From: Rathayibacter sp. VKM Ac-2879
Lineage (GTDB): Bacteria; Actinomycetota; Actinomycetes; Actinomycetales; Microbacteriaceae
DNA length: 64,000 nt
Reading direction: 5' to 3'
NCBI RefSeq assembly: GCF_015351245.1
Contig: NZ_JADKSO010000004.1
Span: forward strand, 287,996-351,995
Part shown: positions 11,809 through 64,000 of the stretch, piece by piece
Position numbering within the stretch: position 1 is the stretch's first letter
How the letters are laid out: each line of letters opens with the position of its first letter
Position numbers and translations under genes: made by a program
Notes under the pieces: generated by a model
The model's input: the letters and a program-made list of their open reading frames with translations, nothing else
Told to the model about the DNA's origin: nothing
Database searches by the model: none

Positions 11809-11977
11809 CTCGCGGGCTCGGCGGGAGCCCGGGCGCACGGCCTGCGGCGTGCAGCAGGTCGACAAGGCAATCTGCGCCGCCTCTCTGCCGCGGTCCGCAT
11901 CGAGACCGTCCACAGCGTGCGTGAACCGCTAGCATCTTCGAGCGATCCCGTCGTCTGAGGGAAAGCAAGGGGGAGCC

Positions 11978-12817
11978 ATGCCAGATGCCGAGCCTCACTC
12001 GACGGCGACTCGCTCGACCGACCCTGCGCAGCGTGGGTCGCCGCCTCGACAGGTGAGCACCGCGCTCGTCACCGGCGCGTCCTCCGGCATCGGCCTCGCC
12101 TTCGCGCGCGCCTTCGCGCGGCGCGGCTTCGGCCTCGTGCTCGTGGCCCGCGACGAGGCTCGACTCCGCGACGAGGCGGCTGACCTGCGTCGGCGCGGCT
12201 CCCCGCAGGTGGAGGTACTGAGGGCCGACCTCGCCGATCGCGAGCAGGTCGAGAGCGTGCGTCGGCGTCTCGTCGACCCGGCCAGGCCGGTGCGGGTGCT
12301 CGTCAACAACGCCGGTTTCGGGATCGAGGGCAGCTTCGCCGTCCCCGATGTCGCGGCGCAGGATCAGGCGTTCGAGGTCATGGTCCGCTCGGTCGCCGTG
12401 CTCTCGGGCGCGGCGGCGGAGGCGATGGCTGCGCGGGGCCGCGGGGCGATCCTGACGGTCTCGAGTGTCGCCGGGTTCGTGCACCTCGGCCCGTACTCGG
12501 CGGTGAAGGCGTGGGCGACGGCCTTCACGCAATCGCTCGCGGTCGAGCTGCGCGGCACCGGGGTCCGTGCGGCGGTGCTCTGCCCCGGATGGGTGCGCAC
12601 CGAGTTCCACACGCGGGCGGCGATGGACACCTCCTCGATTCCCGCCTTCCTCTGGCTCCGCGCCGACGCGGTGGTGGAGGAGTTCCTCGGCGACGTCGCC
12701 CGCGGCCAGGTGGTCTCGGTGCCGTCGTGGCGTTTCGGCGTGCCGATGGCGCTCGTGCGGCACCTCCCAGGCTGGCTCGTGCGGAGGCTCTCCTCGGCCG
12801 TTCTCGCGCGCCGCTGA
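11978..12817 (+). CDS. SDR family NAD(P)-dependent oxidoreductase
   Basis: A 279-residue classical short-chain dehydrogenase. The Rossmann glycine motif TGASSGIG starts at residue ~32 after a polar N-terminal extension. NNAG (~109), the catalytic Ser in LTVSSVAG and the YSAVK (YxxxK) pair at ~170 follow. The PGWVRTEF segment matches the DltE/YqjQ-like SDR group. The substrate is unknown; a keto or hydroxyl group on a lipid or polyketide-like molecule is a guess. An upstream -10 (TAGCAT, 11930-11935) and AAGGGGGAG ribosome site support the ATG at 11978. It stands alone between aspS and the cytochrome operon. Confidence 0.88.
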   Translation: MPDAEPHSTATRSTDPAQRGSPPRQVSTALVTGASSGIGLAFARAFARRGFGLVLVARDEARLRDEAADLRRRGSPQVEVLRADLADREQVESVRRRLVDPARPVRVLVNNAGFGIEGSFAVPDVAAQDQAFEVMVRSVAVLSGAAAEAMAARGRGAILTVSSVAGFVHLGPYSAVKAWATAFTQSLAVELRGTGVRAAVLCPGWVRTEFHTRAAMDTSSIPAFLWLRADAVVEEFLGDVARGQVVSVPSWRFGVPMALVRHLPGWLVRRLSSAVLARR

Positions 12818-12876
12818 GGTCCCGCCCAGGCCCCACCCAGTCCGGCCGCCGGACCGATCCTGCCGGCGTCGTTCCG

Positions 12877-12882
12877 TACACT
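12877..12882 (+). promoter_or_regulatory. -10 element (TACACT), start of ccs operon
   Basis: TACACT ends 8 bases before the GTG at 12891, with no ribosome site. It is the likely promoter for the phosphatase-tlpA-ccdA-resB run. Confidence 0.55.
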
Positions 12883-12890
12883 TGACGCTC

Positions 12891-13535
12891 GTGGTTGCCG
12901 ATCAGATCCATCTCGTGCGGCACGGCGAGGTGTTCAACCCCGACCGTGTCCTCTACGGGCGACTCCCGAACTTCCGCCTCTCGGAACTCGGCCACCGCAT
13001 GGCGCGTGCCGCCGCCGACGATCTCCTCGAGCGCACGCGACGCGTCACCCGGCTCGTTGCCTCGCCTCTCCAGCGGACGCAGGAGTCGGCTCAGCCGATC
13101 TCGCAGGCCTTCGAGCTCGACGTCCGCACGGACGAGCGCGTGATCGAGCCCTCCAATCGATTCGAGGGCCGCTCGATGACCGCACGCGCCTCCGCCCTCC
13201 GCGACCCCCGGAGCTGGCCGCTGCTGCGCAACCCGTTCGAGCCCAGCTGGGGTGAGCCGTACCTCTCGATCTCCGCGCGGATGTACGCGGCGATCGAGGC
13301 GGCATGGGAGGGAACGGTCGACGGGGACGTCGCGATCGTCAGTCATCAGCTCCCCATCTGGACCGTTCACCGTGCGCTCGCGGGCGAGCATCTGTTCCAC
13401 GACCCGCGCAAGCGGCGCTGCGCTCTCTCGAGCATCACCACGCTCGAGCGCCGCGGCGACCGTTTCGTCGAGGTCGGCTACTCCGACCCCGCCGCCGGTC
13501 TCCAGGGCCTGGCGACCGATGTGGGCGCGGTCTGA
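12891..13535 (+). CDS. Histidine phosphatase family protein
   Basis: A 214-residue histidine phosphatase superfamily protein. The catalytic motif LVRHGEVFN (His at ~10) is at the N-terminus, VASPLQRTQESAQPI supplies the second arginine, and VAIVSHQLPIWTVHRAL has the second catalytic histidine. GTG at 12891 is chosen because the RHG motif must lie near the N-terminus and the -10 is 8 bases away. In many actinobacteria a gene like this begins the cytochrome c maturation operon. Its stop overlaps the tlpA start (TGATG), so it is coupled to it. The substrate is unknown; annotation as phosphoglycerate mutase would be unsafe. Confidence 0.88.
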   Translation: MVADQIHLVRHGEVFNPDRVLYGRLPNFRLSELGHRMARAAADDLLERTRRVTRLVASPLQRTQESAQPISQAFELDVRTDERVIEPSNRFEGRSMTARASALRDPRSWPLLRNPFEPSWGEPYLSISARMYAAIEAAWEGTVDGDVAIVSHQLPIWTVHRALAGEHLFHDPRKRRCALSSITTLERRGDRFVEVGYSDPAAGLQGLATDVGAV

Positions 13536-14125
13536 TGCGCCGCCTCCGCCTCCTCGGCGCCGTCGCGCTGGTCGCCGCGCTCGCTCTCAGCGGGTGCACC
13601 GAGGATCCCCTCGCCGGCCAGTACCGCAGCGGCAGCAACAAGGGCTACATCTCAGGAGACGGAACCGTCACCGAGATCGCCGTCGCCGACCGCGCCGATC
13701 CGATCGCCTTCTCCGGCACCGACGAGAACGGCTCCACCATCGACTCCGCTGAGCTGGCCGGCCGCGTCGTGGTCGTCAACTTCTGGTACGCGAGCTGTGC
13801 CCCGTGCCGAGCGGAGGCCGCTGACCTCGAGAAGGTCAACGGCGAGTTTGCCGGCAAGGACGTCTCGTTCGTCGGCGTCAACGTGCGCGATCAGGCGCCC
13901 ACCGCTGCCGCCTTCGCGACGACCTTCGGGCTCAGCTACCCCTCGATCATCGACACCGACTCCTCGGTGCAGCTCGCCTTCACCGGCACCGTCCCGCCGA
14001 ACGCCGTGCCGACCACGATCGTGCTCGACAAAAAGGGGCGCGTCGCCTCACGCATCCTCGGCCAGCTCCAGGAGGCGTCCATCCTCTCGACGCTCGTGAG
14101 CGACACGCTCGCGGAGCAGGAGTAG
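13535..14125 (+). CDS. TlpA/ResA-like thiol-disulfide lipoprotein
   Basis: A 196-residue extracytoplasmic thioredoxin. A lipoprotein signal peptide ends in the lipobox LSGC (Cys ~23). The thioredoxin fold carries the active site CAPC in NFWYASCAPCRAEA (residues ~88-91), and VPTTIVLDKKGRV includes the cis-proline. It would keep apocytochrome c haem-binding cysteines reduced, taking electrons from CcdA, the next gene. It starts with the ATG overlapping the previous stop (TGATG). The gap to ccdA is 4 bases. Confidence 0.92.
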   Translation: MRRLRLLGAVALVAALALSGCTEDPLAGQYRSGSNKGYISGDGTVTEIAVADRADPIAFSGTDENGSTIDSAELAGRVVVVNFWYASCAPCRAEAADLEKVNGEFAGKDVSFVGVNVRDQAPTAAAFATTFGLSYPSIIDTDSSVQLAFTGTVPPNAVPTTIVLDKKGRVASRILGQLQEASILSTLVSDTLAEQE

Positions 14126-14129
14126 CGGA

Positions 14130-14870
14130 GTGGGCGACATCGTCGTCAGCGGCCAGCTCCTCCTCGCCGTCCCGATCGCCGTGCTCGCAGGACTCGTCTC
14201 GTTCGCCTCGCCGTGCGTCCTCCCGCTCGTGCCGGGATACCTCGCCTACGTCGGCGGATTCACGGACGCCGACGAACGGGCGGCGCGCGGCCGCCGCCGC
14301 TTGCTGCTCGGCGTGCTGCTGTTCGTGCTCGGCTTCTCCCTGGTGTTCGTGCTCTACGGCACCGCGGTCGGCTCGATCGGTTTCTGGATGCGGCAGTACA
14401 GCGACGTCATCACGCGCGTCCTCGGCGTGGTCGTCATCGCGATGGGGCTCGTCTTCGTCGGGCAGTTCTCGTTCCTCCAGCGCACGATGCGGCCCGGTGT
14501 CCGCCCGGCCACGGGCCTCCTCGGCGCCCCACTACTGGGCATCGTGTTCGGCGTCGGCTGGACGCCCTGCCTCGGTCCCACCCTCGCGTCGATCCTCGCG
14601 CTGAGCTACGGCACCGCTTCGCCGTGGCGGGGAGCCCTCCTCGCGCTCGTCTACTGCCTCGGGCTGGGCCTGCCCTTCCTCCTCGTCGCCTTCGGCTTCA
14701 GCTGGGTCACCTCGACGCTCGCGTTCGTGAAGCGCCACATTCGCGTCGTCAACATCGCGGGCGGAGCCGCCCTCGTCCTGATCGGAGTCCTGATGGTCAC
14801 GGGCATCTGGAACACCCTCGTCTATGGAGCGCTCGCAGAGGTGATCAATGGCTTCCAACCCGCACTCTGA
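14130..14870 (+). CDS. ccdA: Cytochrome c biogenesis protein CcdA
   Basis: A 246-residue polytopic membrane protein with six hydrophobic segments. It has the DsbD-type signatures: FASPCVLPLVPGYLAY near the N-terminus and GWTPCLGPTLASILAL in the fourth segment, giving the two redox cysteines that carry electrons across the membrane to TlpA/ResA. The start is GTG at 14130 after a GCGGAG-like sequence, 4 bases after tlpA. The 3' end overlaps resB by 23 bases. Confidence 0.95.
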   Translation: MGDIVVSGQLLLAVPIAVLAGLVSFASPCVLPLVPGYLAYVGGFTDADERAARGRRRLLLGVLLFVLGFSLVFVLYGTAVGSIGFWMRQYSDVITRVLGVVVIAMGLVFVGQFSFLQRTMRPGVRPATGLLGAPLLGIVFGVGWTPCLGPTLASILALSYGTASPWRGALLALVYCLGLGLPFLLVAFGFSWVTSTLAFVKRHIRVVNIAGGAALVLIGVLMVTGIWNTLVYGALAEVINGFQPAL

Positions 14871-54798: not shown

Positions 54799-54870
<72 letters not shown>

Positions 54871-54904
54871 CCGTTCCCGGCAGGCCGAGCCTCCGGAAAC
54901 GCGC

Positions 54905-54978
54905 GGCGGGGTAGCTCAGGTGGTTAGAGCACACGGCTCATAATCGTGGTGTCGCGGGTTCAAGTCCCGCTCCCGCTA
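54905..54978 (+). tRNA. tRNA-Met (CAT), elongator
   Basis: Acceptor stem GGCGGGG/TCCCGCT with G-U pairs at both ends, A73, CCA encoded next (54979-54981), and anticodon CAT at 54939-54941 in a CTCATAA loop. T-loop TTCAAGT. The sequence matches the elongator tRNA-Met pattern; a tRNA-Ile2 reading (lysidine) cannot be ruled out from sequence alone. Confidence 0.9.
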
Positions 54979-55038
54979 CCAAGACATGTGTACTCGAACA
55001 AATTCATCGGGATGTTGGCTGAGGCTGGTCTTGGTGGA

Positions 55039-55068
55039 GGCGTCGGAGTTTTTCTCCGGCGCCTTTTT
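55039..55068 (+). terminator. Rho-independent terminator after tRNA-Met
   Basis: GGCGTCGGAG and CTCCGGCGCC pair as a 10-bp stem (one G-T) with a TTTTT loop, followed by TTTTT. This is the only T-run terminator in the window. Confidence 0.85.
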
Positions 55069-55626
55069 GTGTTGCTCCCGCTTGGGCGGCCTCGTGGACC
55101 GTGCTCAGGGCGGGCTGTTCATGCCGGCCCGCACGGGATGCTGGCGGAGCCAGTTGTGTCCGGCATGGTCTTGTCTTCGGGTGCGGGGTGAGCGCCTCAG
55201 CTTGGCGTCGGTGGACGAGTCGCGCGAAAGGGCAGGGCCGCGGCGCCGATGAGCGCGGGGATGGCAGCGCCGAGGATCGCGGACGTTGCGGTGGTGTCCT
55301 CCGACGCGTCGATTGTGGTCGAGCAGCTCGATGTGCCCTGCGCCCAGAGGCGTTGCCGCCAAGGGTCGCCCGGCCCTGGCGGCGCTAGTGTGTCGATGTG
55401 GACGAGGCTGCGGACGCGCCGCATGCTGAACCCACCCGCGCTGCAAACCGACTCCGCGTCTGCCGGGGACAAGCTGTGTGCTGATGAAACGAGCAATCAT
55501 CGCGTGTGCCCTATTGGGGTGAGTCAAGCGTAAACTCGGCGTGTCGCTTTGATTCTGTGCCTCCTCGTCGGGTTCTCTGAGCTGTCTCCCACTTCGCGGA
55601 GGTCGTTTCAGCCTTGGGGGAGTGGC
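55069..55626. other. Gap before the RHS gene
   Basis: About 560 bases lie between the tRNA terminator and the RHS start. A minus-strand frame (55197-55424) is the only protein-like one. The plus strand has only GC-driven frames. No att duplication of the tRNA-Met 3' end was seen. Confidence 0.4.
55197..55424 (-). CDS. Possible small membrane protein
   Basis: A 75-residue frame: MRRVRSLVHIDTLAPPG, then STTIDASEDTTATSAILGAAIPALIGAAALPF, giving one hydrophobic segment (~45-63). No ribosome site or good -10 is seen upstream, so it is offered at low confidence. No family recognised. Confidence 0.3.
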   Translation of the reverse strand: MRRVRSLVHIDTLAPPGPGDPWRQRLWAQGTSSCSTTIDASEDTTATSAILGAAIPALIGAAALPFRATRPPTPS

Positions 55627-58600
55627 GTGTCTCGTCGCCGTATTCGTTCTGTTGTGTCGGTCTTGGCAGCGTCGCTTGCTGTCGTACTAGGGGTCACCGT
55701 CGTTGACGTCAGTTCTGCTTCGGCGTTGACGACGCAAGCGCGGGCGCGTGTGGTCGCCGAGCAGGCGGCTCTCGACGCGGCTGGAAAGACCGATCCGAAT
55801 GTGTACCCCGTCGAGGAGTCGGAGCCGCCTACTCTGGAGGACCCGTCGACGGACGGTGGAGCGGCGCCCGAGGCGATCGTCCCCTCCAACGCTCCGGTTC
55901 CTGAGGAATCCACTGTGCCGACGCCTGCGCCCGAGGAAACCGCCGTCCCGGACCCGGAGGCTCTCGAGGATCTTGAATCGAAACCAGTGGCGGAGCGAGA
56001 CGAGTACTCCACCACCTATGAACTCGAGGACGAGAAGAAGGCCACGGTCATCTCCGCCGCACCGATGAACGTGCAGGACGACTCTGGGAAGTGGGTCGAA
56101 GCGGAGACAGAGCTCTCGACGACCGGCAACAGTTCGTGGCTCGGGCGGGGTGGAGCCGAAGTTGAGCTTCACCCGCTCGCTCCGCAGTTCGCGGAGTACG
56201 CCGATGACGAGAACGTTCTCACGATGACGCGCGACGAGCACTCACTCGGCTTCGAGCTTGAGGGTGCAGCGCACTCCGTGCTGCGTCGGGACCTGTCACC
56301 TTGGGCGGACGACGAGGCGAAGTCGCACCTCGAGTACCTCGATCTCTTTGACGGCGTGGACCTCGTCTACGACGTCGGCCAGGCGGACGTGAAGGAGAAC
56401 TTGCGCCTGAAGAAGGTTCCGGCTCCCGGACAGTCCACCTGGACGTGGGAGGTAGACGCGCCGGGGCTGACTGTGTCGAAGACCGACGACGGCAACGTCG
56501 AGTTCCGCGACGCCGCGGGCGAGGTCGTCTACACCGTTCCCCGGCCTGTGATGTGGGACTCCTCCGGCACCGAGAAGAAGGCGGACGCTGACGCCGAGAT
56601 AGAGCTGACCGTGGCACAGCGGGCCGGCAGAACGCTTCTCTCCATTTCCCCGTCGCGCTCCTGGCTTGAAAGCAGTAAGCGTGTCTATCCGGTATACGTG
56701 GATCCGACGACAGTAGCGAATGTGATTTCGACTAGAGCGTTCAAAAGTAACGGTCAGACTAACGATGGTATGACCCAAGTCGGCAATACTAACTCGAACG
56801 GCGTGTGGCGCTCTATCGTCCATTTTGACTACGAGCAGGTCTTCGGCAAGCAGATCATTGCCACTCAGGTTGACGTGACGAAAATCTGGCCGGACGGTAC
56901 CTCCGGTACGTACACCGGAGGCATCCATGACGTGACCTGCATGGGCTTCAACTGCGCCGGAGCCAAGCTCGCCGACCTCACCATTTCCAACACCAATGGG
57001 ACCTCAACGAACGGCGACGGCCTGAACCGAAAGATCGTCGAGTGGGTGAAGAACCGCAATTCCGGCGGGAATCTCATGATCGGCGGCGACGAGGGCGCAG
57101 GCAACTTCTCCTACCGCCGCGTGGATGTGCAGATGCAGATTCTCTGGAAGGACTACCCGGCCGCCGGCTGGAACCCGCTCCCAGGGGACAAGGCGCCTCG
57201 CCAGACGCTTACACCCGACCTGCACGCGGATGCCTACTATAATCCCACCGATCAGCCGCTCGCCCACCTCTACCGCATCAGCGAGAACCCGAACCCCGAT
57301 GTCGGAACTCTCTGGGACACGGGATGGATCTCCAACGAGACGGTCGAAGTGCCGGTAGGCGTGCTCAAGCGCAACACCACCTATTACTGGCGCACCTGGG
57401 TCCACGACGGATACGACGGCTACCTCGGTCAGTCGACCGTTGCCGTGTCCAACGTCTTCAGCTTCACCACCGACGACGTCCGGTTCGGGCTACCGACCGG
57501 ACCTATCGACGACGCCGTCATCACCACCCTTACGCCCACGCTGACCATCACTGACCCCGCTCAGCCATCCGGCGAGGACGTCGACTACTCCTTTCGCATC
57601 GCCACCGATACAGGCGCCGCGAACGGGCAGGTCGTGAACTCCGGCTGGCAGAAGAGCCCCACCTACACCGTGCCCAAGGGTGCGTTGCTGGACGGCGTCG
57701 CCTACTCGTGGACCGTATGGGTGAAGAACAGCGTCGACGAATGGCGTCCCGACTGGACGAACTCCTTCGTCACCAACCTCCGCGTCAATGATCCCGGTCC
57801 CTCGCCGACCGACACAGTGGGACCCGCAACAGTGAACCTCGCCAACGGAAACCTGGGGCTGAGCTTCACCTCACCCACGGTGGAGACGCCCGGTGGCTCC
57901 ATGGGAATGAACTTTGTCTATAACAGCCAGTCGACCAGCAACTCGGGCCTCGTCGGGACGTACTACAACATCCCCTCCTTCACCGGTTCGCCCTCGAGGG
58001 AGTTCGGCGGGTGGACCCCGAACCTCGTCCGCACCGACCCGACACCCGGCGGCATCTGGAACGACTCCTCCCCGCTCCCGGGGGTGGTCAGTCATGACAA
58101 CTTCACCGCCGATTGGACTGGCCAGATCCGGCCGCCCGCCGGCACCTGGAAGTTCAAGACAGTCCGCGACGACGGCGTAATCCTCGACATCGGCGGCACG
58201 AACCTCATCGACAAGTGGGGCGACGCCGGGACGGATGGCTGGAGCGGCCCGATGGGCTTCGCGTCGGGTGAGTCCAAGACGTTCCGGATGCGGTACTTCG
58301 AACGCACCGGCGGAGCTCAGGTGACGCTGCAAGCGCAAAAGATCGACGCGAACGGCGCCGTGCTGCAAACCGTCGCCTCTGTTCCCGGCGACTGGTTCAC
58401 CAAGCGCACGATCCTTCCGGACGGGTGGGGTGCGTCTGCTCCGCTGGCCGGCGCCGAGTACTTCTACGTGAAGGCCGACGGCAAGGAAGGATCGATCACC
58501 TATACCGACATCTACGGCGCCCAGCACGTCTACGAGAAAAAGTCCGACGGCAGCTACAAGCCTCCGGCCGGAGAGAACGGAATCGCGGCGATCAGCGGGG

Positions 58601-61600
58601 ACGGCATCATCTCCCTCGACGATGCCGGCCTGATCACCACGTTCAAGAAGGACGGCGGCCAGGTCGATCAGGTTGTCAGCACGACGACCGCGACCAAGCC
58701 GATCGCTCCTGTCGTCAGCTATAGGAGTGATGGGCGGATCGACCGGATCTCAGACCGGTTCTCGAAGAAATCGGACGGCAGCTACAGCCGTGTCGTCCGG
58801 TTCCTCTACGGCTCGGACACCGCCTCCTCGAGTGGACTCTCGAACGGGAATGACCAGAGCAGCGGCAAAGTCTGTCTGCCCGGCCCGCAGGGCACCGCGC
58901 CGTCCCCCGTGTATCCGCCGAGCGACTACCTCTGCCGAATCATCTACCCCGGTGACGCGCCCGGATTTGAAGATGACACGAGATTGCTCTATGACAAAAA
59001 CGGATACCTTGTATCAACTATTAACCCAGGTAGCGAGTCGACGAGCTTCGCATACAATGAGCAAAAACTTCTGAAGTCGGTTCGCACTGCGACAATGTCT
59101 GATTGGCTGAAGTCGAGTGGCGCGGTGATATCGGACGCCAACGCGTCACTGACGATCGACTACGCGGCCAACCGTGTCACCCGCATCCTTGGAGCGGCGC
59201 CTGATGGTGTAACCAGCTCTCAGCGCACGGGTAAGTCATATTCCTACGATGTGACGCCTAGTGGTTCGGTTCAGGGCAAGACGACTGTCAAGGCAATTAA
59301 GGCGAACGGATCCGTAATTGCAAACACGGGGAATGCATCAGGTATTGCAAATTCGGTGTCCTATGACGCAGGTTTCCGAACGCTCTCGTCGACCACCGCC
59401 CTCGGACTGACTGCGTCGGCAACGTGGGATGAGCAGGACCTTCAGCTTTCGTCTACTGACCCTCAAGGTAGAATGTCGACAACTCTCTATGACCAGCGAG
59501 ATCGAGCGGTAGCAAGCTACGGTCCGGCGCCGGCCTCGTGTTACGGGACGGACCGCCGCCCGACGCAAGCCTGCGCATCGACGACGGGTCGATCTGAAAC
59601 TGCCTACGATGAAGGCCTACGTGGCCTGTCGGTCGTGGACTTTGATAACGATCAATTTGCAGGTACACCCAAGAGGTATGGACTAGACGTCGGTGCCAAG
59701 GACGGAGTCCTCTCCGAGAACTGGGGATCCGCGCAGATTAACCAGGTCGGCACTGACGCCTGGTCCGCGCGCTTCACGGGAACGATCACCTTCCCGAGCG
59801 CGGGCGATTACCAGTTCAGAACTTTCGCAGACGACGGCACAAACCTGTGGATTGACAACAAGCTCGTTATTCTTGATGTCAAGCCGGCTTCGGCACATTG
59901 GTCTCCAACTGGAACCTTCCACGCGGACTTCGCAGGGCAGGAAGTGACCATCCGGCTCGACTACGCCGATATGGGGGGCGACGCGCGCGTCGAACTTCAC
60001 TGGCAGACTCCCGGCAGCACCGCTGGAACCCTCGTTCCTGGTGACAGGCTCAAGCCGGACTATGGGTTCGCAACGACCGAGAAGACTTTCGATCAAACGC
60101 CAATCGCATCCACAACCTCCGCGCCGTCGACGACAACGAGGAAGGTCTACGGGACGAGCGGGGGAACCGACCAGCAGTGGCTGGGTCTCATCGCCTCGAC
60201 CTCTGTGGATCCAACCGGGTTGAATCTCACGACAGCAACGCAATTCGCCGGGGCGGATCAGGGGTGGCGCCGCACCGGAAAGACTCTTCCAGCCGCAACT
60301 TCCTCCGGAGCGACCGCCGACACCAGTGGTCTCTCGGTGACCTACTACCCCACGTCGGAACTAACCAGCACCGCGGCGTGCGGTGTGCCGGTGGGTACAA
60401 GTCAGGCCGGATTTATAAAGTCCGAGAGGGGAGCCACACCCGCAAGCGGTTCGGCGGTGACGCGAGAGTACATTTACGACGAGCTGGGCCGTACCGCCGG
60501 GAGCAAGAGAACCTCTGATAGTACTTGGACATGCACCTCTAGGGACGACCGGGGCAGGATTATCAGCTTGTCCTATCCGGCGGCTACTGGGACAGTGGCA
60601 CGCACGATTACCACGACCTATGAGACTGCAGCGGGAGATCCGCGGACGACCAAGACTTCTGACACTGGGGTCACTAATTCCCCGAACGGTGGGACTATTA
60701 CGACGACTATTGACCTCTTGGGTCGAGTGACGTCATACACGGACGTGTGGAACACGACCACTCTCACGACCTACGATGCCGCCAGCAGGGCAACCCAGAC
60801 GAAGTCGACGCAGGGCGCGTCAACGTCGACTCGAACGCTTGAGTATGACGTCGACGGAAAAGTGACGAAGGTCAAAGACGGGACTACGGATCTGGCCACC
60901 GTGACCTACGGTGCAAGCGGTGTTGATGCTGGTCTGATCACTAGTGTCACTTACCCCGCGAGCGGCGCAGGCAACGGGACGAGCCTCGGGAACGTAGCTC
61001 GGGACAACGCTGGTGCGCAGACGAAACTGACGTGGACATTCGCATCTGGTGCGGCAGTCACTGACGAGGTCGTTCGGTCACAGGCTGGACGAGTTGTCCA
61101 GAACATGCTAACCGTCGCTGGCCAGTCTGCGCTTGTTTCCAGCTACAAATACGACCCGGCGGGTCGGCTCACAAATGCATCGATCCCCGGTCATTCTCTT
61201 ACTTACGGTTATGCCGATACGAATTGTGCGGCGAATGGCTCCGTGAACGCGGCCGGTAAAAACGGTAACCGCACATCAATGACAGACCAGCCGACGGCTG
61301 GCGGAGCGACAACCGCATCATATTGTTATGATGCAGCAGATCGACTCCTGTCCAGCCAGGTGACCGGCGCAGCCGCAGGTGCCGACCCAGTCGCCGACGG
61401 AGTAGGCGCTACGGAGCTTGCATACGATGCGAAGGGTCGTACGACGAAGCTCGGTGACCAGACCTATAGTTACGACCTTGCCGATCGCCACACGAAGACG
61501 ACTCAGCCCGACAGTACGATCGTCGAGTATGTGAGGGACGCCACTGATCGGATTGTCGCTCGTATCCACACGGCAGCAGGAGAGTCTTCGCGGATAATTC

Positions 61601-62613
61601 GGTACTCCTACACGGGAAGTGGCGACGGAGCGCAGCTCGTTCTGAGCGGTACAAATGCAATCGTGGAGCGCACGACCGTCCTTCCCGGCGGAGCAATTGC
61701 TTCATTCCGTGACGATGGCTCCGAAGTTTGGTCCTACCCGAACCTGCAGGGAAGCATCATTACGACAGCTGACGCTTCCGGAGCTAGAGCTGCGACGGTG
61801 AACAGGTATGACCCGTTCGGACAGCCAATTGATCCCTCCACTGGTCGTATCGGAACTATTGCTGGAGCCGACGCGGTCGCCGACTCGCAAAAGAACTCGG
61901 ACGCTGACTATTCATGGCTCGGAGGTAATCAGAAGCTTTTTGAGCACGCAGGTGGTATCGCCGCGATTGAGATGGGGGCCCGCGTCTATATTGCAGCGCT
62001 GGGCCGCTTCCTGTCACTGGATCCCATAGAGGGCGGAGTCGATAATGACTACACGTATCCCCTTGACCCTATAAATAAGCTCGATTTGACGGGAAAGAGG
62101 GCGTGTGTCGGAAGCGAATGCAACGGCATGCATATTGGCAAGCAGGGTTCGGTCTCCGGTCAGTCCCAGGCGGACTGGATTGCGAGCAAGCCGAATACCA
62201 CCGCTCCTAAAGCTCCAACTGCGCCTAAGCCGGTGGATCCGGCTGATGTCGCGACGATGTATTCCGCTATAAGCCTCGGCTTCACCGCACTGGCTTTCAT
62301 CGCTGCAGCAACCGGCGTCGGTGCGATCCTTTCTCCGTTCCTCTTGGCGGCAGCTGCGGTCACAAGCATCATCTCTGCGGCGGTCACCTGTAGCATCGCA
62401 TTCAATGGCGGAACTGCTCGTGACGGCGTGAATTGTGGGATCTCAGCGGGGGCGGCGGTGATCCCAGGCGTCGGAGCGGGCGTGGCGCGTACACTGACAG
62501 CCACAGGTGTCGTCACGACGCGGGCTACAGCAGGAGCGATAACTCGAGGTTCTTCGTATGCGGGCAGTGCACTGAATTACACAGACAATGTCAACACGTT
62601 CATGGATTGGTAG
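55627..62613 (+). CDS. Secreted RHS-repeat/PA14 protein (polymorphic toxin-like)
   Basis: A 2,328-residue exported protein. GTG at 55627 follows GGGGGAG and begins a signal peptide ([17 protein letters not shown]...SSASA, cleaved ~33); the earlier frame is not needed. Next come a Glu/Pro-rich linker (~45-120), a DNRLRE-like beta domain (~360-510), an FN3-like region, PA14 domain 1 (~774-905), and PA14 domain 2 (~1352-1462). RHS/YD repeats follow (YDELGRTAG ~1617, [10 protein letters not shown] ~1842, [10 protein letters not shown] ~1901) and the RHS core (YDPFGQP ~2060, GRFLSLDPI ~2125). The ~175-residue tip after DLTGK is hydrophobic and Gly/Ala-rich, with no known toxin fold. It resembles WapA-type contact toxins, but the target is inferred. 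Composition changes along the gene. Confidence 0.9.
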
Positions 62614-62662
62614 ATCATTGGCAATAGGGCCTGTTCGGCGCGAAGTCGAACCCGGATGGAAT

Positions 62663-63019
62663 ATGCGCACCTGGGCTAAGTTTTACTGGGCTTTACTTAT
62701 TCCGGCTTTGCTGACACTTGTGATCTTTGTGACAGTTGCAGTCAGTGGAGGCTTTAGTGGGGGGTTGTTAGTACTTCCTCTCATCACTTTGGTGACGACC
62801 GGGCTCATGTCGCTCTTTGGGCCGCGAATGGAAAGACGACGTGAGAAGGAACAGGCGCGCGGTTACTCCACGGCCTGGTTCGCCCCACGAGGGCTCGAGC
62901 AAGTAGAGCCACGAACGGGCCTCGTCATTAAGACCCGAGATGAACCGTGCCTTTCTATGTCGGAGATGCGTGCACGATCCCGAGAGGCGAGACGGCTGAG
63001 TGGAGGCGACGATGATTGA
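62663..63019 (+). CDS. Small membrane protein, candidate immunity partner
   Basis: A 118-residue protein with two hydrophobic helices (~10-30, LLIPALLTLVIFVTVAVSGG, and ~35-55, LLVLPLITLVTTGLMSLF), then a charged cytoplasmic tail with RMERRREKEQARGY and a final acidic run. It starts 49 bases after the RHS stop, the position of immunity genes in RHS loci. Since the RHS tip is hydrophobic, a membrane immunity protein fits. This is inference; no family is recognised. A longer frame from 62588 would overlap the RHS end. A+T-rich codons set it apart from the core genome. Confidence 0.6.
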   Translation: MRTWAKFYWALLIPALLTLVIFVTVAVSGGFSGGLLVLPLITLVTTGLMSLFGPRMERRREKEQARGYSTAWFAPRGLEQVEPRTGLVIKTRDEPCLSMSEMRARSREARRLSGGDDD

Positions 63020-63095: not shown

Positions 63096-63317
63096 CCAAG
63101 AGTCGAACGGTCGGTTTGCAGCCAGTCGGGTCGACGTCGAAGCGGATGAACACCTGGACGTGGTCGCAGCCTACAATTCTCGTTCCCATTCCGCTTCCTC
63201 CGGTCGAATAGATCATTTCGGCGAGACTACGAGCGGCTGGAACATGTGCGGAATACGGGAGCGGGAGCGAGGCGACGGCTTCGTCTTGCCGCCTGAGCGC
63301 GGTCAGCGTCTGCCTCC

Positions 63318-64000
63318 GCAGGCCAGGAGATGAGCATCCGCCTGGACTATGCCGACATGGCCGCCGACGCACGTCTCGAGCTGCACTGGCAGACACCCGG
63401 CAGCAGCAGCGGCACCCTCGTTCCCGGCGACCGGCTCAAGCCCGACTACGGTTTCGCCACCACCGAGAAGACCTTCGATCAAACCCCGATCGCGAACACC
63501 ACCTACGCCCCCTCGACGACGACGAAGAAGATCTACGGCACGAACGGCGGAACCGACCAGCAGTGGCTCGGTATCGTCGCAGCCACCTCGATCGATCCCA
63601 CAGGGCTCAACCTCACAACGGCGACCCAGTACTCGGGCGCTGACCAGGGCTGGCGCCGCACTGGAAAGACGCTCCCCGCGGCTACCGCGTCCAACTTCTC
63701 GCCGGACTCCAACGGGCTGTCCGTGACGTACTTCGCGATCGGCGACACGCTCAGCGCGTCGGCCTGCGGAGTGCCCGTCGGAACGAGCCAGGGCGGCTTC
63801 GTGAAGACTGAGAAGAGCGCGACCTCGGCCACCCAGACGTCTGTCACTCGTGAATACGTCTGCGACGAATGGGGACGGACGGTCGGGTCCAAGCGGACCT
63901 CTGACAGCACCTGGACCTGCACTACCCTCGATGATCGAGGCCGCGTCACGAGCGTCGCCTACCCGGCAGCATCCGGAGTTCCCGCGCGCACCGTGACCAG
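63318..64000 (+). pseudogene. Second RHS module, 5'-truncated (runs off window)
   Basis: From AGQEMSIRLDYAD the frame is homologous to residues ~1437-1660 of the large RHS protein (59936 to ~60614). It holds the end of PA14 domain 2 ([12 protein letters not shown]), the linker [19 protein letters not shown] and the first RHS repeats (YVCDEWGRTVGS). No signal peptide, DNRLRE domain or first PA14 lies in front; the frame begins in mid-domain, with ATG at 63330 as the first start. It looks like a displaced 3' RHS cassette or the 3' half of a decayed paralogue. The 3' tip lies outside the window. Third positions are more GC-rich than in the matching part of the first copy. Confidence 0.65.

Follow-up and report, generated by a model that had tools for sequence, protein, structure and literature searches.

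Does an RHS protein with a hydrophobic C-terminal tip, followed directly by a gene for a small membrane protein, represent a membrane-acting toxin and its immunity protein? The question is raised by a locus in the 64,000-nucleotide stretch of DNA analysed here (the window). A preliminary description of this DNA had reported a large RHS locus made up of an RHS protein, a hydrophobic tip and an adjoining membrane protein, and all three parts were confirmed.

The RHS protein, its tip and the neighbouring gene

The RHS gene (55627-62613, forward strand, GTG start) encodes a protein of 2328 aa by ORF translation and is preceded by GGGGGAG at 55616-55622. Residues 1-33 (55627-55725) show by eye the RRR, hydrophobic core and A-S-A of a Sec-type signal peptide, as had been stated before. 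Two PA14 stretches were found above the Pfam cut-off (E 3.5e-26), the better one at residues 1338-1465 (59638-60021), and YD/RHS repeats above the cut-offs of both Pfam (PF05593, E 1.6e-8) and NCBIfam (TIGR01643), in agreement with the preliminary description. The end of the RHS core, also named there, was placed at residues 2106-2156 (61942-62094) by NCBIfam and core alignment. Rhs_assc_core (TIGR03696) matches here with 31.1 bits, 1.4 below its cut-off of 32.5, and the motifs YDPFGQ and GRFLSLDPI are found. The YD/RHS repeats together with the RHS-associated core place the protein among the RHS polymorphic toxins. A DNRLRE-like domain that had been reported was not recovered in the RHS protein from Pfam or NCBIfam at E ≤ 1; this annotation is borne by two plasmid relatives of the protein. 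The Pfam scan detected no PAAR family and a sequence check no VENN. In eight aligned cores two Asp are invariant, one in L-D-P and one in D-x-x-G (21 residues apart in the window). This pair at the core end is a candidate self-cleavage site, a role suggested by analogy with Tse5 as described in PMC10684867.

The variable tip at the C-terminus has 172 aa (62095-62610, forward strand), as defined by translation, hydropathy and alignment. It begins with about 50 mostly polar residues, followed by a long hydrophobic part, a Cys pair and a stretch of weaker hydrophobicity, and it ends in DNVNTFMDW. The hydrophobic character claimed earlier was borne out by 19-residue hydropathy windows above 1.3 (maximum 2.15) over tip residues 52-107, counted from 62092 (62245-62412). 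The two Cys, residues 100 and 115 of 173 on the same count (62389-62436, forward strand; hydropathy and tip alignment), flank a more polar turn and could possibly form a disulphide. The family scan proposed with the preliminary description gave no Pfam or NCBIfam match for the tip at E ≤ 1, in line with its remark that no known motif was seen. A structure model of the tip has five helices; with a mean pLDDT of 45.1 and a two-row alignment behind it, the model is poor.

The partner gene (62618-63019, forward strand) was assigned from homologues, helices and tail alignment, and its product is a probable immunity protein. The protein has an N-terminal P-G-W motif, two membrane helices (the ORF shows two hydrophobic stretches) and a conserved tail GYSTAW...QVEPRTGLVI, with positive charges outside both helices. 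A two-helix protein beginning 49 bases downstream of the RHS gene had been described; the two helices stand, and the start at 62663 probably has to be moved further upstream. Close homologues have in common an N-terminal motif like V-x-P-x-G-W-S-M-R-x-W (by eye) that precedes ATG 62663 in the window, which makes TTG 62618 (133 aa) or ATG 62588 (143 aa) the probable start; the latter reading overlaps the RHS stop. Depending on the start (62588, 62618 or 62663), the protein has 118-143 residues including the tail. The partner model (helices 3-28, 34-65 and 99-113) is weak, with a mean pLDDT of 60.5 on a two-row alignment. No match to the partner was found above the cut-offs of Pfam and NCBIfam, and none in plasmids.

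A second RHS cassette begins about 295 bases past the partner gene (63314-64000, forward strand). It is N-terminally cut, has 74% DNA identity to 59928-60536 by blastn and runs off the window, its tip lying beyond the window end. Upstream of the RHS locus are tRNA-Thr and tRNA-Met (54799-54981), possibly the landing place of an island. The terminator-like hairpin at 55036-55066, upstream of the RHS gene, is weak evidence because eight such sites were found in the stretch scanned versus 6.0 expected.

Tip and partner in other genomes

When genome contigs were scanned with the tip, a single locus was confirmed: L001, which lies in Microbacteriaceae bacterium VKM Ac-2855 (genome G001), the only genome matched in a genus-level tip search (1 of 15). 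Its tip is 47% identical to the window tip over all 173 residues, the last nine being the same in both, and the next gene after the RHS tip is a partner homologue with 40% identity. The core end of L001 is 78% identical to that of the window. Locus L039 (genome G384) agrees with the window in 85% of the last 131 core residues and in 20% of the tip, the conserved core and variable tip of an RHS polymorphic toxin. In L039 a partner-family gene comes after the RHS gene, and an array of three more lies further along (11829-14215), one of them with an internal stop. The first gene of the array starts 3 bases past an orphan tip fragment ending TADNFNLLGDW. Orphan tips with partner genes were noted by eye in this array and at 5254-6002 of L046.

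A two-row tip profile was run on 398 genomes of the family of G001 (Microbacteriaceae by NCBI name) and matched four at E ≤ 0.001 (G001, G126, G055 and G182). The G126 match (E 2.9e-4) falls at the end of a different type of RHS gene, without the core type of the window, and directly after it lies a partner-family gene (E 3e-16) that was not used in the tip-profile search. The matches in G055 and G182 were counted as chance, with no RHS found there by tblastn. A tblastn search of plasmids with the core end plus tip gave six records, none covering 80% of the query and all from the core end on, and a search of phages with the tip gave no match.

For a census of RHS tips, a profile of eight core ends was used, which found RHS cores in 66 of the 398 Microbacteriaceae-family genomes at E ≤ 1e-10. 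From the window and the fetched loci, with weak or cut core places left out, 100 distinct core-plus-tip rows were parsed. Four open-ended rows, five with tips below 60 residues and one duplicate were dropped to give 90, and one more with less than 450 bases downstream to give 89. A rule applied to the tip only (hydrophobic stretch, Cys, 5-20 residues, Cys, hydrophobic stretch, 35-85 residues to the end) picked 14 of the 89, referred to here as hairpin tips. With "next door" defined as a partner-domain start within 250 bases of the RHS stop, the partner family is next door to 7 of the 14 hairpin tips versus 2 of the 75 others (p=1.5e-5). Leaving out the query loci (window and L001), the counts are 5/12 versus 2/75 (p=3.9e-4). 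One of the two other tips with a partner, L143, is also hairpin-like, without the Cys pair. The partner HMM was trained on matches in these same genomes, which were selected for their sequence, not their position. When the class was drawn by an iterated HMM from the two query tips, which takes in two likely composition matches (L161 and L087) and omits L047, the partner was next door in 7/13 versus 2/76 (p=7.8e-6), and in 5/11 versus 2/76 without the query loci (p=2.3e-4). As gene order, the partner family thus stands in the position of an immunity gene, by adjacency in L001 and G126 and by the census link, and the toxin/immunity pairing proposed in the preliminary description is supported by both.

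The best-scoring next ORF carries at least one predicted membrane helix behind all 14 hairpin tips versus 33 of the 75 others (p=5.2e-5), and two or more helices behind 10/14 versus 26/75, with some starts scored too late. The coding score, trained on one gene, is a weak guide, because at a score above 5 only 4/14 and 36/75 next ORFs remain (helices in 4/4 versus 18/36). Seven of the 14 hairpin tips have next door other membrane proteins of about 70-300 aa that are not of the partner family. Hairpin tips are often followed by a second or alternative gene that encodes membrane helices plus a soluble domain, PH-like by eye (L106, L078, L139, L141, L047, L043 and L046). Several soluble domains of genes behind hairpin tips have this PH-like look, and no Pfam family was found for them among those scanned. 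Gly-rich, beta-strand-patterned RHS tips followed by small predicted two-helix proteins were also seen (L126, L090, L093, L140 and L144). The Cys pair alone is not diagnostic, because 33 of the 75 other tips have one; in the 14 hairpin tips it was part of the rule.

A glycine zipper was tried as a signature of the tip and rejected: the hydrophobic part contains three strict motifs versus 1.0 expected in shuffles (P=0.098), and in each of the other 13 hairpin tips the count likewise does not exceed that of its own shuffles. A profile of 12 aligned tips searched against PDB chains gave four matches up to E 10, none of them relevant (the best, E 0.19, is a ribosomal protein); these were taken as chance, as was an RTX N-terminal match (E 0.014) in one of the 12 tips.

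The partner family was compared across 14 proteins, in which the mean pairwise identity is 16% in the two-helix part versus 36% in the tail (pattern E..GYTT.......L.QVDP.TG.VIR..GE..LS). Such a difference would be expected of a hairpin that determines specificity and a tail with a shared function, the division of labour suggested here. A two-row partner profile matched at least 26 of the 398 family genomes, only the best candidates per genome being scored. The family looks largely bound to Microbacteriaceae, because a 14-row profile matched only 2 of 396 phylum-sample genomes, both already found in the family search. Proximity to RHS was scored for 42 distinct ORFs (E ≤ 1e-8) in long loci and the window, counting an RHS core or repeats up to 3 kb upstream. 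Short members (≤200 residues, plus L001) have RHS there in 8 of 19 cases and long members in 1 of 23 (p=0.006); three of the short members are the L039 array. The family is thus not tied to RHS, and wide occurrence of the partner away from RHS genes, which the preliminary description had held to speak against the pairing, applies in part, mostly to the long members. In L048 and L051 a tip or tip remnant lies directly upstream of a short member (by eye). The long membrane proteins away from RHS (L052, L053, L055, L056, L059, L062, L064 and L072; 322-493 aa, stop to stop) carry the two-helix-plus-tail module, some of them twice. Several long partner proteins apparently fuse the partner domain with a PH-like module (by eye). 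The long proteins may be orphan immunity or something else.

Possible functions of the locus

Since hydrophobic tip and membrane partner recur together in related bacteria, they are probably a membrane-damaging weapon and its antidote. We consider it fairly probable that the locus encodes a polymorphic RHS toxin whose tip depolarises membranes, together with a membrane immunity protein. The RHS protein would be exported via its Sec signal with the variable tip at the C-terminus behind the RHS shell, and the tip would be released near a rival cell. The hydrophobic helices of the tip may then insert into the rival's cytoplasmic membrane and dissipate the membrane potential as an ion-conducting pore or an ionophore. 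The partner would confer immunity as a membrane protein whose two ends both face the cytoplasm. Its variable two-helix hairpin would bind the cognate tip within the membrane, and the conserved tail may serve a purpose that all family members have in common.

It is quite unlikely that actinobacterial RHS proteins use this kind of tip as a generic translocation linker, left here after loss of the enzymatic toxin that normally follows, with an unrelated or leftover gene behind it. Tips such as L081 and L135, which by eye begin hydrophobic and run on into enzyme-like soluble domains, would fit this explanation, and so would the cut paralogous cassette directly behind the locus. The preliminary description had raised a truncated linker as a refutation of its proposal. 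However, the relative in VKM Ac-2855, with its 47% identity, same nine-residue end and partner homologue next in order, makes truncation unlikely, as the tip end is kept to the last residue before the stop in two species with the partner directly after. The L039 orphan tip fragment has a similar end, 3 bases before a partner gene, and the hairpin tips as a class are linked to the partner family. The placement of the hydrophobic part also argues against a linker, although it partly follows from the rule, which asks for 35-85 residues behind the second Cys. In 13 of 14 hairpin tips the first window of strong hydrophobicity starts 45-99 residues past the core (the 14th has none); such windows occur in 50 of the other tips and start within 14 residues of the core in 23 of them.

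A toxin/immunity pair whose tip is not a pore also has a low probability in our view. Such a tip would act on a membrane-bound target or hijack a membrane protein, with the partner masking the target. CDI ionophores, according to PMC11630599, use membrane-protein receptors via separate entry domains, and the roughly 50 polar residues before the hydrophobic part of the tip could be an entry domain; the conserved partner tail, moreover, exceeds the needs of a bare hairpin. Against this, the 12 aligned tips have no conserved polar or catalytic pattern and have in common only Cys and Gly columns (two Cys and one Gly invariant, one Gly nearly so). It is very improbable that the tip is a membrane anchor keeping the RHS protein on the producer's surface, with the partner as an assembly factor and no toxin involved: a Sec signal plus a hydrophobic C-terminus could mean surface anchoring, but nearly the same core with unlike tips, the tandem cassettes, the orphan partner genes and tips of the same core family that resemble GIY-YIG nucleases by eye fit polymorphic toxins.

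If the membrane-depolarising toxin with membrane immunity is the right explanation, this actinobacterial family would offer more than twelve candidate tip/immunity pairs, and the constant tail of the immunity family would give a testable prediction on how membrane immunity works. A wider proposal is offered tentatively, as doubtful in its full form: Microbacteriaceae may possess lineage-bound Sec-exported RHS ionophores, countered by immunity proteins in which a fast-changing hairpin provides specificity and a constant tail in the cytosol binds to some common component of the cell. The second two-helix protein with a PH-like domain would then be a usual partner, and fused long forms would have spread without the toxin as broad orphan immunity.

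Comparison with known systems

Judged by the features examined, the locus would work like the systems named here, such as Tse5/Tsi5 or the CDI ionophores. It is filed under none of them, because it has no relevant match among solved chains, no Pfam match, and a different carrier and export. Tox-WTIP with Imm17/Imm-CdiI (Zhang et al. 2012; PMC3482391) is described as a small two-helix hydrophobic toxin with two-helix immunity classes, as here. The Tox-WTIP features RxxR and W-x-[ST]-I-P are absent from the tip. Imm17 has W-x-W and an R between its two helices, and this W-x-W is absent from the longest reading of the partner, neither protein having a Pfam match at E ≤ 1. The LrhA/LrhI pair of Listeria, as presented in PMC10327511, shares with the locus a Gram-positive RHS toxin and, directly behind it, a candidate immunity protein that is membrane-bound. 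Unlike the partner, LrhI is 261 residues long, with a single predicted membrane segment and a globular part that is predicted to be extracellular, and the pair is T7SS-linked.

EsxX/ExiCD and TspA/TsaI are reported in PMC12744356 as membrane-depolarising T7SS toxins of Staphylococcus aureus with membrane immunity proteins. The exiCD genes also occur as orphans according to the same source, like partner genes here. EsxX differs in its LXG and T7SS delivery, with six predicted helices each in ExiC and ExiD, and EsxX and TelE have a glycine zipper, whereas the zipper motifs here are not above chance. The CDI ionophores (CdiA-CT type 10 with CdiI), in the account of PMC11630599, are helical membrane toxins of great diversity. 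The immunity proteins that neutralise them are two-helix hairpins, 72-100 residues long, whose N- and C-termini both lie on the cytoplasmic side. The ionophores are five-helix bundles; the tip model, poor at a mean pLDDT of 45, also shows five helices. The carrier is CdiA and not RHS; the RHS carrier here is without VENN, and the partner is longer with a conserved tail.

The open-access literature covered (subscription journals were mostly outside the scope) yielded no description of an actinobacterial RHS tip that acts on membranes, and the one characterised RHS pore-former described there is Tse5, a T6SS effector of a Gram-negative bacterium. Sequence kinship of the tip to Tse5-CT was not detected, the 12-tip profile having no relevant PDB match. 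Tse5 is T6SS-delivered with a PAAR-like N-terminus; the protein here carries PA14 domains and, by eye, a Sec-type signal, its host is likely actinobacterial, and the partner, unlike Tsi5, has a conserved tail of about 60 residues. Tse5-CT, the Rhs tip of Pseudomonas aeruginosa, forms ion-selective pores as reported in PMC9637101. In the descriptions of PMC9637101 and PMC10684867, Tse5-CT/Tsi5 resembles the locus in its hydrophobic RHS C-terminal tip and in an immunity protein with two predicted membrane helices; the tip helices and the two-helix partner here are likewise predictions, from hydropathy and the weak partner model.
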